From contig NZ_JACHNE010000001.1 in assembly GCF_014205255.1 (NCBI RefSeq), forward strand, positions 3,534,001 through 3,598,000: DNA of 64,000 nucleotides, written 5' to 3'. The translations under genes and the position numbers were made by a program. The notes beneath the pieces were generated by a model. That model was not told the DNA's origin, did not search any database, and saw nothing but the letters and a program-made list of their open reading frames with translations. This stretch comes from Streptomyces caelestis. Lineage in GTDB: Bacteria > Actinomycetota > Actinomycetes > Streptomycetales > Streptomycetaceae. Positions 807-4,263 of this stretch are shown here, piece by piece; positions within the stretch are counted from its first letter, which is position 1; each line of letters begins with the position of its first letter.

Positions 807-2219
807 TCAGGAGGCCTTGGCCTTCTCCTCGGTCTTCTCCTTGGCCTTCGCCTCGGTCTTCTCCTTCGGCGCGGAGGCGACCGGGGCCGGCTTCGCGGCC
901 TCGTAGAACTCCTCGCGCGGCGTCTCGATGGCGCCGAGCGAGACGACCTCGCGCTTGAGGAACATGCCGAGCGTCCAGTCGGCGAAGACGCGGATCTTGC
1001 GGTTCCAGGTCGGCATCGCCATGCCGTGGTAGCCACGGTGCATGTACCAGGCGAGACGGCCCTTGAGCTTGATCTTCATCTTGCCCATGACGATCATCGC
1101 GACGCCCTTGTGGAGGCCGAGACCGGCCACCGCTCCCTTGTTGGCGTGGGAGTAGTCCTTCTGCGGGAAGCCCCGCATGCCGGACAGGACGTTGTCGCCG
1201 AGGACCCGGGCCTGACGCAGCGCGTGCTGCGCGTTCGGCGGGCACCAGGCGTTCTCGTTGCCCGCCTTGCGGCCGACGAGGTCCGGGACCTGGGCGTTGT
1301 CGCCCGCGGCCCAGATGTAGTCGGTGCCCTTGACCTGGAGCGTGGTCTCGCAGTCGACGTGGCCGCGGGGCCCGAGGGGCAGGCCGTAGCGGGAGAGGAC
1401 CGGGTTGGGCTTGACGCCGGCGGTCCAGACGATCGTGTTGGAGTCGACCTCGAGGCCGTTCTTCAGCACCACGTGGCCGTCGACGCAGGAGTCCATGGAG
1501 GTGGACAGGTAGACCTCGACGCCGCGGCCCTCGAGGTGCTCCTTGCCGTACTTGCCGAGCTTGGGACCGACCTCGGGGAGGATCTTGTCGGCGGCGTCGA
1601 CCAGGATGAAGCGCATGTCCTCACGGGACACGTTCTTGTAGTACTTCGCCGCGTCGCGGGCCATGTCCTCGACCTCGCCGATGGTCTCCGCACCGGCGAA
1701 ACCGCCACCCACGAAGACGAAGGTGAGCGCCTTGCGGCGGATCTCCTCGTCGTTGGTGGAGTCGGCCTTGTCGAGCTGCTCGAGGACGTGGTTGCGCAGG
1801 CCGATGGCCTCCTCGATGCCCTTCATGCCGATGCCCTGCTCGGCGAGGCCGGGGATCGGGAAGGTGCGGGAGACCGCGCCGAGCGCGACGACCAGATAGT
1901 CGAAGGGCAGCTCGTACGCCTCGCCGACCAGCGGCGCTACGCGAGCGACCTTGCGGTCCTGGTCGATGGTGGTGACCCGGCCGGTGAGGACCTCCGCCTT
2001 CGGCAGCACGCGTCGCAGCGGGACGACGACGTGGCGCGGGGAGATGTTGCCGGCGGCGGCTTCGGGGAGGAAGGGCTGGTAGGTCATGTACGACCGGGGG
2101 TCGACGACCGTGACGGTCGCCTCGCCGTAGCGCATCTTCTTGAGAATGCGCCGAGCTGCGTACAGGCCTACGTACCCACCGCCTACTACGAGGATCCTGG
2201 GACGCTCCGTGGTGCTCAT
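807..2219 (-). CDS. ndh: Type II NADH dehydrogenase (NDH-2)
   Basis: 470 residues. It oxidises NADH and passes electrons to menaquinone without pumping protons, at the inner face of the membrane. An FAD-binding Rossmann motif VVGGGYVGLYAARRI is at the N-terminus, a second dinucleotide motif FVGGGFAGAET is near residue 170, and the C-terminal FAD contact WAAGDNAQVPD is near residue 310. The C-terminal tail is Lys/Glu/Ala-rich and probably flexible. The start ATG 2219 has no clear ribosome-binding site, but a GATACT -10-like box lies 7 nt before it, so a leaderless mRNA is possible. A Rex-like site about 320 bp upstream suggests control by the NADH/NAD+ ratio. Family call is secure. Confidence 0.93.
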   Translation of the reverse strand: MSTTERPRILVVGGGYVGLYAARRILKKMRYGEATVTVVDPRSYMTYQPFLPEAAAGNISPRHVVVPLRRVLPKAEVLTGRVTTIDQDRKVARVAPLVGEAYELPFDYLVVALGAVSRTFPIPGLAEQGIGMKGIEEAIGLRNHVLEQLDKADSTNDEEIRRKALTFVFVGGGFAGAETIGEVEDMARDAAKYYKNVSREDMRFILVDAADKILPEVGPKLGKYGKEHLEGRGVEVYLSTSMDSCVDGHVVLKNGLEVDSNTIVWTAGVKPNPVLSRYGLPLGPRGHVDCETTLQVKGTDYIWAAGDNAQVPDLVGRKAGNENAWCPPNAQHALRQARVLGDNVLSGMRGFPQKDYSHANKGAVAGLGLHKGVAMIVMGKMKIKLKGRLAWYMHRGYHGMAMPTWNRKIRVFADWTLGMFLKREVVSLGAIETPREEFYEAAKPAPVASAPKEKTEAKAKEKTEEKAKAS

Positions 2220-2461
2220 GCCATCGAGTATCCACCCGCCTCAGGGGGGTAGCTCGTGCGCCCCTTCACAAGCTCCGTCGGGGGGTGTGTTATCCTCCGC
2301 GACTCCCGTGATCCATGTCATGGTGACAAGCGGGCTCCTTTGTGCACGGCGGGCCGTTGTCAATGCCGCGTGAGCTGCCTCTCTGGCCCGCGGACCCCCC
2401 TGTGAGACCCCCGTCGAACCCTCCTCCGGCCATCCGCCCGGGCGCACCCATACCATGCTTC

Positions 2462-2514
2462 TGAACATGTTCAAAGGGTCATCAGGCCCCCAGAAGGGTC
2501 AACGTGACCCTTCT
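2462..2514. promoter_or_regulatory. Two adjacent palindromes upstream of ndh
   Basis: A perfect 12-bp palindrome TGAACATGTTCA at 2462-2473 is followed by an inverted repeat AGAAGGGTC (2492-2500) / GACCCTTCT (2506-2514). An AAAGGGTCA copy at 2473-2481 repeats the second motif. They look like operators for unknown factors. The first has GAAC/GTTC arms but only a 2-bp gap, so it does not fit the actinobacterial LexA box (4-bp gap). Confidence 0.45.
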
Positions 2515-2538
2515 CTTCGCCCTGGAGTGCCGAATTCC

Positions 2539-2556
2539 TTGTGAAGAACTTCACGA
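2539..2556. promoter_or_regulatory. Rex-like operator (ROP) upstream of ndh
   Basis: TTGTGAAgaacTTCACGA matches the Streptomyces Rex consensus TTGTGAA-N4-TTCACAA at 13 of 14 fixed positions. Rex is an NADH/NAD+-sensing repressor of respiratory genes, so a site in front of an NADH dehydrogenase gene makes biological sense. The 320-bp distance to the ndh start is long and implies an upstream promoter. Confidence 0.6.
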
Positions 2557-2704
2557 ACTTTTCCGGGGGACTGCTTCCGGAGGCTCACACGAGTCCCCCG
2601 GACCCGCTCAAACGTGATCCATGCCTGCTCAGAAGCGGCCGGGGCGACGGACCGCGCGATGCCGTCGAGGATCGCCCACGAACGCGACTCCCGACAGATG
2701 CCAT

Positions 2705-2727
2705 GTGTACACGTGGACGCGTACACT
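2705..2727 (+). promoter_or_regulatory. Leaderless promoter with TGTACA-type operator of the antitoxin gene
   Basis: The palindrome GTGTACAC (2705-2712) contains the TGTACA core known as the YefM/YoeB operator hexamer, and a near copy CGTACA (2720-2725) lies 14 bp downstream. The -10 box TACACT (2722-2727) overlaps the second copy and ends 6 nt before the ATG at 2734. Transcription would start at or near the first codon, and the antitoxin would repress its own promoter. Confidence 0.6.
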
Positions 2728-2733
2728 GGCTTC

Positions 2734-3006
2734 ATGACTGAGAACACCGTGACCGTACGGGAAGCCCGCGCGCACCTCGCCGACCACATCAACCGGGCTG
2801 AGGAAGGCGTCCCGACCGTCATCACGCGCAATGGCGCTCCGGTGGCCGCCGTGGTGCCGATCTCGGACTTCGAAGCGTTGGAGGAGGCGGCCGACGTGAT
2901 GTTGGCGCGTGAAGCCGAAGCGATCCTGGCCGAGGGCGGCACCACGGTGACGATGGCCGAACTGCTGGCGGACCTGTTCACCGAGCGGGACGGCGAGGCG
3001 GCGTGA
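2734..3006 (+). CDS. Phd/YefM-family antitoxin
   Basis: 90 residues from ATG 2734. The N-terminus (VTVREARAHLADHINRAEEG then PTVITRNGAPVAAVVPISDF) is the DNA-binding Phd/YefM fold. The C-terminal third (ELLADLFTERDGEAA) is acidic and likely wraps the toxin. It should neutralise the downstream RelE-type toxin and autorepress the operon. An in-frame upstream ATG at 2614 exists, but the 2734 start is preferred: it begins exactly where the family fold begins and lies 6 nt past a -10 box. Its stop overlaps the toxin start as GTGA. Confidence 0.88.
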   Translation: MTENTVTVREARAHLADHINRAEEGVPTVITRNGAPVAAVVPISDFEALEEAADVMLAREAEAILAEGGTTVTMAELLADLFTERDGEAA

Positions 3007-3272
3007 AGTACGCCTTCCGGTTCACCACGGCGGCACAGCGGCAACTCCGGGCCCTCAGCCGTCCCGATGCCATGCGTATCCTGACCGCGTTGACCGCACT
3101 CGGTGACGACCCGTACCGCCAGGACGCCGACGTCAAGAAACTCACCGGACCGTCGGAGCTCTACCGGCTCCGGGTCGGAAGCTACCGGGTCGCCTACCAG
3201 ATCAACGACGGTGAACTCGTCGTCCTCGTCGTCAAGGTGGGCGACCGGCGGGACGTCTACCGAAACCTGTGA
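3003..3272 (+). CDS. RelE/ParE-superfamily toxin
   Basis: 89 residues from GTG 3003, overlapping the antitoxin stop (GTGA), so translation is coupled. The sequence has the RelE-type layout: an N-terminal helix pair (AAQRQLRALSRPDAMRI), the DVKKLTG segment, then the beta-hairpin YRLRVGSYRVAYQI and a C-terminal DRRDVYRNL with basic and aromatic residues. RelE-like members cleave mRNA on the ribosome and ParE-like members poison gyrase. Pairing with a Phd/YefM antitoxin favours the RelE activity, but this is inference. Confidence 0.87.
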   Translation: MKYAFRFTTAAQRQLRALSRPDAMRILTALTALGDDPYRQDADVKKLTGPSELYRLRVGSYRVAYQINDGELVVLVVKVGDRRDVYRNL

Positions 3273-3309: not shown

Positions 3310-4263
3310 TCAGCGCGCCTCGCTCGCCGCGTCATGAGCTATCCCGTCGAGGATGTCGTGCTCGCTCACCACGACCTCCTCCGCGCCGATCCGCTCCATG
3401 ATCGACAGCAGCACGAGGGCCCCCGCCCCGATCACGTCGACCCGGCCCGGGTGCATGGAGGGCACGGCCGCGCGCTCGGCGTGCGTGGAGCGCAGCAGCC
3501 ACTCGGTGATCTCGCGGACCTTCTCGCGGGAGACGCGGGAGTGGTGGATGGCGGCCGAGTCGTACTCCGGCAGCTCCTGGGCGATCGCCGACACGGTCGT
3601 CACGGACCCGGCCAGGCCGACCAGCGTGCGGGCCTCGCGCAGCGGGACCGTCTCCTCGGCGAGGTCGAGGGCGGCCTCGATGTCCGCCCGCATGGCCGCG
3701 ATCTGCTCCTCGGCCGGCGGGTCGGTCACGGCCCCGTCCCGGACCAGGTGCCGCTCGGTCATGCGGACACAGCCGATGTCCACCGAGCGTGCCGCGCGGA
3801 CATGGTCGTCGCCGAGGACGAACTCGGTCGAGCCGCCGCCGATGTCCACCACGAGGTAGGGCTTCGCGAGGTGGTCGCGCCCGGCGAGCTCCTTGGTGGC
3901 GCCGGTGAAGGAGAACTCGGCCTCCTGGTCCCCGGAGATCACCTCGGGCTCGACGCCCAGGATGTCCAGTACGCCGCGCACGAACTCGTCCCGGTTCTCG
4001 GCGTCCCGGGAGGCGGAGGTCGCCACGAACCGCAGCCGTTCCGCCCCGTGCTCCTTGATGATCCCGGCGTACTCGCGACAGGCCGCGAAGGTCCGCTGGA
4101 GCGCTTCGGGGGCGAGCCGGCCGGTGCGGTCGACGCCCTGCCCGAGCCGCACGATCGTCATACGGCGGTCCAGGTCGACCAGCTCACCGGTGGCCGGGTC
4201 CGCGTCGGCGACCAGGAGCCGGATGGAGTTCGTACCGCAGTCCACGGCGGCGACGCGGGTCAC
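3310..4263 (-). CDS. ppx: Ppx/GppA-family exopolyphosphatase
   Basis: 317 residues from GTG 4263. The ASKHA-fold phosphate motifs are present: DCGTNSIRLLV at the N-terminus, then YLVVDIGGGSTEFVLG in the middle and LVGLAGSVTTVSAIA later. It should hydrolyse inorganic polyphosphate or pppGpp in the cytoplasm. Its length fits the short actinobacterial Ppx form without an HD domain. A longer reading frame upstream (to 4398) is low-complexity and overlaps the previous gene. The GTG overlaps the DUF501 stop as GTGA, so I chose it. It converges with the RelE-type toxin, 37 bp away. Confidence 0.9.
   Translation of the reverse strand: MTRVAAVDCGTNSIRLLVADADPATGELVDLDRRMTIVRLGQGVDRTGRLAPEALQRTFAACREYAGIIKEHGAERLRFVATSASRDAENRDEFVRGVLDILGVEPEVISGDQEAEFSFTGATKELAGRDHLAKPYLVVDIGGGSTEFVLGDDHVRAARSVDIGCVRMTERHLVRDGAVTDPPAEEQIAAMRADIEAALDLAEETVPLREARTLVGLAGSVTTVSAIAQELPEYDSAAIHHSRVSREKVREITEWLLRSTHAERAAVPSMHPGRVDVIGAGALVLLSIMERIGAEEVVVSEHDILDGIAHDAASEAR

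Follow-up and report, generated by a model that had tools for sequence, protein, structure and literature searches.

The spacing between two predicted Rex operators upstream of ndh changes almost exclusively in whole helical turns across Streptomycetaceae

Far upstream of ndh in Streptomyces caelestis lies a genuine, ndh-linked predicted Rex operator that is kept across Streptomycetaceae. A second candidate operator was found close to the start codon, and among members of the family the separation of this pair differs almost exclusively by whole helical turns. This whole-turn spacing suggests control of ndh through a DNA loop. Rex is a widespread sensor of the NADH/NAD+ ratio that is generally portrayed as acting by simple blockage of single operators.

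The window, that is the whole 64-kb stretch of DNA that was analyzed, carries ndh at positions 807 to 2219 on the minus strand, with the ATG at 2219. The gene is annotated here as a type II NADH dehydrogenase (NDH-2), and its product matches Pfam Pyr_redox_2 (1.4e-38). In the NCBIfam profile search, no family came above the cut-off for this product. Therefore, the NDH-2 name rests on the link to SCO3092/SAV3529, which is made by the identical proximal site and by a gene order that we presume to be shared. A second ndh paralogue (58% identity) is located at G000:C1:4159557-4160906, and no Rex-site match is listed within 10 kb of it.

The distal site, TTGTGAAGAACTTCACGA (2539 to 2556), was identified as a Rex operator, putatively an auxiliary one, from its match to the consensus and its conservation. 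The sequence-only reading had described this 18-mer as one base away from the Rex consensus and 320 bp from the start codon. Both points were confirmed: there is a single mismatch to TTGTGAANNNNTTCACAA, a TTGTGAA-n4-TTCACAA inverted repeat, and the A of the ndh ATG is 320 bp away. Across the 8.94-Mb genome, only the distal site matches TTGTGAANNNNTTCACRA perfectly. When up to three mismatches were allowed, the 64-kb window gave six strand-hits (three sites) against 1.16 expected, and six were reached in 0 of 100 shuffles. All six fall within 2254-2556, upstream of ndh. Among all 43 genome-wide strand-hits with up to two mismatches to TTGTGAANNNNTTCACRA, two sites lie within 500 bp of each other at ndh alone. 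The remaining genome matches with one or two mismatches include the letters of the published S. avermitilis rex-hem, wblE, atpI and nuoA sites.

A single Rex gene was found in the genome (NF003992, 392.5 bits against a cut-off of 226), and a Rex domain was detected in 20 of the 21 genomes searched, the missing one being 79% complete. In the Rex frame (L004 1349-2362), matches to solved Rex structures stop at 296-300 of 337 residues; the extra residues, approximately 37, could form a contact tail. The proposed role of the distal site, a Rex operator linked to ndh, is supported by the family-wide conservation described below, by the single Rex gene, and by the reported binding of S. avermitilis Rex to an ndh2 probe (PMC5355995).

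Conservation was assessed on 255 ndh loci, comprising that of the window, 80 named relatives, further members of the genus, 59 genus genomes missed by an exact two-site pattern search, 64 loci from other genera of the family and 10 from outside the family. The pattern-missed genus genomes numbered 170, of which 60 were searched and 59 had ndh and were read; in G038, one of the 60 searched, an ndh match at E 1e-150 was absent. In the other genera, 92 genomes from 16 genera had a match (64 read), and in two other families of the order 15 loci were found (10 read). Six duplicates were present among the 255 loci, and 238 distinct family loci were left after their removal. Three close pairs are identical in both coding sequence and leader, and may represent the same species.

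Distal sites were located with up to two mismatches allowed, and every family locus with enough sequence had one. Of the 245 family loci, which span 17 genera, 244 carry the site at 225-370 bp from the start of ndh, on its upstream side; the sole family locus where it is missing, L031, is on a contig that ends 198 bp upstream. Thus, the site is kept not only in other Streptomyces but also in other genera of the family. It was absent from all 10 loci read in the two other families of the order. In the distal site, GTGAA and TTCACA are invariant in all 238 distinct loci, and the 4-bp spacer takes 14 forms. Invariant arms around a variable spacer are the expectation for a Rex site.

The proximal site, TTGTGAAGGGGCGCACGA (2254 to 2271, minus strand), had been missed by the sequence-only reading. 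Located 34 bp before the ATG (-52 to -35, centre at -43), it has three mismatches to the Rex consensus and is identical to the SAV3529 site given in Table 1 of the available text of PMC5355995, and we consider it as the candidate primary operator. It is kept at a fixed place, with up to four mismatches, in 229 of 238 distinct loci. Its inner T is lost, with C in 227 of these 229. The other nine loci display more than four mismatches at this place, and in seven of the nine (at least seven mismatches) no site is recognisable.

The region next to the ATG also displays promoter-like features. A putative -10 element of a leaderless promoter, GATACT (2227 to 2232, minus strand), lies 7 nt before the ATG. 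In 239 of 244 loci the element has the form [G/A]ATACT, with its end 6-7 nt from the ATG, and CATACT takes its place in the other five. Shine-Dalgarno signals are poor, the best match to GGAGGA between -16 and -5 reaching at most 4/6 in 238 of 244 loci. Since GATACT is conserved near the ATG and no clear Shine-Dalgarno is present, these features point to a predicted leaderless promoter beside the ATG, the -35 region of which would overlap the proximal Rex site. Another conserved element, TAnCA[C/G/T] (TAACAC here; 2287 to 2292, minus strand), 72-73 bp before the ATG, is in place in 244 of 244 loci and might be a second -10. A standard sigma-70-type scan of 2150-2760 returned nothing, even for the proposed proximal promoter, and both promoter elements are therefore predictions.

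The distance between the centres of the distal and proximal sites varies from 182 to 327 bp across loci. To follow how it changes, an ndh tree was built with the 215 of 244 loci that had enough coding sequence, on which 69 spacing changes were inferred. Thirty-two were of 1-2 bp (29 of 1 bp and 3 of 2 bp) and one was of 4 bp. Twenty-three were close to one turn (6 of 10 bp, 10 of 11, 5 of 12 and 2 of 13). The larger ones were of 23 bp (one), 24 bp (three), 25 bp (one), 34 bp (three) and 35 bp (two), and 44, 54 and 66 bp occurred once each. Changes of 5-9, 14-22 or 26-33 bp were never found among the 69 changes of this 215-locus tree. Thus, 36 of the 37 changes of at least 3 bp amount to 10-13, 23-25, 34-35, 44, 54 or 66 bp, the last one being of 4 bp. 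In a strict test, a change of 3-70 bp was scored as in phase when it differed by no more than 2 bp from a multiple of 11.25, for which 37% of the sizes from 3 to 70 qualify. By this measure 34 of 37 changes were in phase, the exceptions being those of 4, 25 and 54 bp. As a control, the interval from the ndh stop to cfa (124 loci) gave 27 of 83 changes in phase and a flat spectrum (Fisher p 5e-10 versus 34/37). When the main interval was restricted to the same 124 loci, 13 of 13 changes were in phase.

A tree-free comparison led to the same picture. Of 67 independent close pairs, 51 have equal spacing, 11 differ by 1-2 bp, 5 by 10-13 bp and none by any other amount, whereas among 43 pairs for the ndh-cfa control 9 are equal, 1 differs by 1-2 bp, 3 by 10-13 bp and 30 by other amounts. 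The two-site pattern, applied to 392 genomes of the genus, gave a gap of 245-275 bp in 222 of them and a half-turn gap of 257-263 bp in none. Inside the leader, 13 of 62 close pairs carry gaps of 3-9 bp; the net difference is nevertheless 0-1 or 11-12 bp in 13/13, a count that depends on the alignment. The fitted repeat is 11.30 bp per turn (bootstrap 11.11-11.52). In periodogram Monte Carlo runs, 0 of 2000 sets did as well for the main interval, and likewise for a 141-locus subset, against 3 of 2000 for a ppx-side control. The distal-proximal spacing is quantised in whole helical turns.

Some results complicate the reading of this phase. All nine loci without a good proximal site lie within 0.28 turn of phase when position -43 is assumed, and two whole-turn changes (L239/L240 and L242/L243) link relatives that both lack the proximal site. 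Because phase holds in the absence of a recognisable proximal site, RNA polymerase or some other protein may serve as the proximal anchor of the loop. Moreover, in the 141-locus subset used for the ppx-side control, changes of 8-9 bp (three) and 26 bp (one) appear in the main interval. At a looser cut-off, 91 pairs divide into 65 equal, 16 differing by 1-2 bp, 2 by 3-9 bp, 7 by 10-13 bp and 1 by 33-36 bp. The inferred changes thus depend on sampling. When 12 distance-cluster centres were compared with random sets in a crude test, the outcome did not reach significance (542 of 5000 sets were as good).

Partial phasing (39/70) is also present between the ppx motif and the distal site, where changes of 10-13 bp are in excess (21/102). 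In our reading, this is due to motif U, which lies inside that interval. Motif U is a TGAGC direct repeat (TGAGC-n16-TGAGC here; 2605 to 2631, minus strand) found approximately 50-95 bp upstream of the distal centre. Its regex form is present in 107 of 244 loci, mostly as TGAGC-n15-TGAGC, and it is unrecognisable in most outer genera. Between U and the distal site, the changes in 104 loci were 17 of 1-2 bp, 10 of 10 bp, 4 of 11 bp and 1 of 21 bp; a fixed-length definition (81 loci) gave 16 of 1-2 bp, 1 of 3 bp and 12 of 10-11 bp. These steps correspond to approximately 10.3 bp per turn, versus 11.3 for the main interval. From ppx to U, 8 of 41 changes (66 loci) were of 11-13 bp, and one of 14 clean ppx-side pairs displays an 11-bp tandem duplication (10/11 bases). 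These two observations may reflect a regional 11-bp indel bias. Motif U was also considered as the mark of a regulon, which led no further: there were 5 genome matches to the exact pattern against 6 for the reversed control, and the pattern misses the window's own variant.

Other elements lie between the two Rex sites. The sequence-only reading had mentioned two palindromes between the distal site and the ATG, and both were found. The one at 2492 to 2514 is an inverted repeat, AGAAGGGTCA-n3-TGACCCTTCT, with perfect 10-bp arms, which is poorly kept in an 80-row alignment. The middle palindrome, TTCTGAACATGTTCAAAG (2459 to 2476; core TGAACATGTTCA), has three mismatches to the Rex consensus. It was rejected as a third Rex site, as three mismatches or fewer are found in only part of the loci and a near twin is missing from the probes reported as bound in the available text of PMC5355995. 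The counts given in that paper place this twin, TTCTGAACGTGTTCAGAA (pbp3-4), among its 16 tested S. avermitilis probes. The middle palindrome is probably not a Rex site. A 23-base block B, GCAGCTCACGCGGCATTGACAAC (2356 to 2378, minus strand), is conserved in the alignment of relatives, and lies 114-116 bp from the centre of the proximal site in the 98 loci matching at least 18 of its 23 bases. In variants such as GCAGTTCACAAGGGGTGAAGAAC, block B is similar to TTCACAAGGGGTGAAC, the GlnR ChIP site of S. venezuelae Sven_2895 (PMC3087709). The form seen in the genus, CTCAC-n6-TTGAC, bears just a loose resemblance to the GlnR pattern GTnAC-n6-GTnAC, and some genomes carry instead TTCACAAGGGGTGAA, which is similar to that ChIP site. 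Block B may possibly be a GlnR box. In addition, SCO3092 is listed in a DasR ChIP table (PMC4398421). A known structured leader RNA upstream of ndh was ruled out, as an Rfam search of 2000-3000 up to E 1 gave no match. In several outer genera (at least L220-L223, L226-L235 and L241), an inverted repeat GTCC...GGAC occurs approximately 35-65 bp downstream of the distal site, and in L241 it has the form TTCGTCCCG-n5-CGGGACGAA.

Beyond the distal site, an insertion between ppx and ndh encodes a Phd/YefM antitoxin and a ParE-like toxin, which form a type II toxin-antitoxin pair (2734-3272, plus strand, with 2640-2690 and 3310-3380). The codons of the ppx 3'-end (ILDGIA) occur a second time on the ndh side, and the ppx end has therefore apparently been duplicated or replaced by the insertion. 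Palindromic GTGTACACGT/ACGCGTACAC repeats (2705-2726) directly precede the antitoxin start and are possibly its autoregulation operator. S. afghaniensis (L006), a very near relative, lacks the pair, and only 123 bp separate its ppx motif and distal site. The idea that the distal site serves the plus-strand toxin-antitoxin pair was discarded, since the site remains in S. afghaniensis.

With moderate confidence, we propose that ndh has two Rex operators joined by a phased repression loop, the proximal one acting as primary operator over the -35 region of the leaderless promoter and the distal one as auxiliary. At low NADH/NAD+, Rex dimers would bind both operators. The DNA between them would fold into a repression loop, and the local concentration of Rex at the promoter would rise. 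Upon an increase in NADH, Rex would be released and the loop would open. Because such a loop needs both sites on the same face of the helix, evolution would tolerate only whole-turn changes in spacing. From the patterns described above we infer the occupancy of the distal site, the loop, the Rex-Rex contact, the leaderless start and repression. A broader reading is more tentative, and we place it somewhat under an even chance: a family-wide, redox-controlled ndh loop would be closed by Rex or a Rex-containing complex, the ladder of spacings would record an in vivo repeat of approximately 11.3 bp over evolution, and the U arm of approximately 10.3 bp would lie outside the loop. If the phased operator pair is real, control of NDH-2 would be cooperative, sharper and tied to DNA supercoiling. 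The model of the ndh promoter would then be completed, the published site being only half of the control region. More generally, the spacings that occur naturally in a family can indicate a DNA loop and give its helical repeat without experiment.

The main rival to a loop between two Rex operators is one in which Rex at the distal site contacts RNA polymerase or another promoter-bound protein, the proximal site being a separate operator. It would account for the phase that holds in the seven genomes without a recognisable proximal site and for the whole-turn changes between such relatives. Furthermore, conservation of the promoter block (TAnCA, GATACT) extends to more loci than that of the proximal site, and a larger complex of proteins and DNA is suggested by motif U and block B. 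However, the proximal Rex site is at its fixed place in 229 of 238 loci, and L239 and L240 have a weak ROP-like site at -98 (4 mismatches) that could serve instead. We consider this alternative unlikely, although it deserves attention.

The sequence-only reading had deduced from the 320-bp distance a long leader or a second promoter. In this form there is no loop, and the distal site acts as a roadblock or as the operator of a second ndh promoter near motif U, giving a leader of approximately 350-400 nt. Some members of the genus do conserve motif U on the upstream side of the distal site, and a Rex site inside a transcribed region has a precedent at S. avermitilis wblE (+108 to +135, in the available text of PMC5355995). 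However, the deduction was not supported by our data: the conserved GATACT at the ATG points to a leaderless promoter, and the spacing moves in steps of approximately 11.3 bp. Whole-turn spacing over 182-327 bp is not predicted by a second promoter or long leader. The empty sigma-70-type scan, which missed the proposed proximal promoter too, and the lack of a recognisable motif U in most outer genera also speak against it. Thus, we judge this explanation to be improbable.

The 11-bp steps could also reflect a mutational habit of the region and not selection on phase, as the ppx-side excess and the tandem duplication would suggest. In the lone clean single-gap event of the leader (two pairs with L229), the match to the neighbouring sequence is just 7/11. 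Against such a habit, the ndh-cfa interval has a flat spectrum in the same genomes, and leader indels of 3-9 bp do occur yet net length is kept in all 13 pairs, as far as the alignment can be followed. A mutational origin is very improbable in our view. Finally, as the Rex consensus includes the Crp pattern TGTGA-n6-TCACA and the proximal site has lost its inner T, Crp might occupy one or both sites in place of Rex; we give this hardly any credence, since the inner AA and TT of the distal site, dispensable for Crp, do not vary in any of the 238 loci around a variable spacer, and Rex bound the S. avermitilis ndh2 probe (available text of PMC5355995).

The closest published case is that of S. 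avermitilis. There, Rex binds the ndh2 (SAV3529) probe in EMSA, with TTGTGAAGGGGCGCACGA listed as its site, and NADH lowers Rex binding to target promoters, as tested on cydA1 (Liu et al. 2017, PMC5355995, available text). It is the same gene, with a regulator of the same family and a proximal site identical letter for letter. The difference is that the available text of this paper gives one site, with three mismatches, and contains no mention of the distal site, the phase or a loop. The published search covered up to 350 bp upstream, and the ndh2 site was placed 119 nt from the annotated start (PMC5355995), which would put that start approximately 85 nt into our ndh reading frame, around Met29. 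Placed 285 bp further up, as in the window, a distal site in S. avermitilis would lie approximately 404 nt from that start (285 + 119) and would thus have been missed by the 350-bp search. For the other Rex targets (rex-hem, cydA, nuoA, atpI and wblE), operators lie over or just below the promoter, as proposed here for the proximal ndh site. Indeed, the footprinted Rex sites of S. avermitilis rex, nuoA1 and atpI overlap the -35 region, and the wblE site lies at +108 to +135 (PMC5355995). Unlike ndh, the other Rex targets of this genome have no second site within 500 bp at up to two mismatches to TTGTGAANNNNTTCACRA.

In the literature searched, neither a phased Rex pair nor a phase read from natural spacing in a family was found, and searches for Rex with looping or tetramers gave nothing of this kind; earlier Rex regulon lists or RegPrecise may include the distal site. 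Rex operators and looping repressors are already known kinds, and what is new is the whole-turn spacing of the two ndh sites. The E. coli lac loop resembles the proposed arrangement in that it joins a promoter operator to a distant one, and lac repression is periodic in the spacing; araCBAD and gal are further E. coli repression loops. LacI is a tetramer and Rex a dimer, and we know of no tetramer formation by Rex. In vivo fits of lac repression gave 11.08 and 11.60 bp per turn in the wild type and 10.95 without HU (PMC1762422). The 11.30 bp fitted here is similar to the wild-type values. In the lac system the phase was obtained from engineered spacers, whereas here it comes from the natural spacing of a family.
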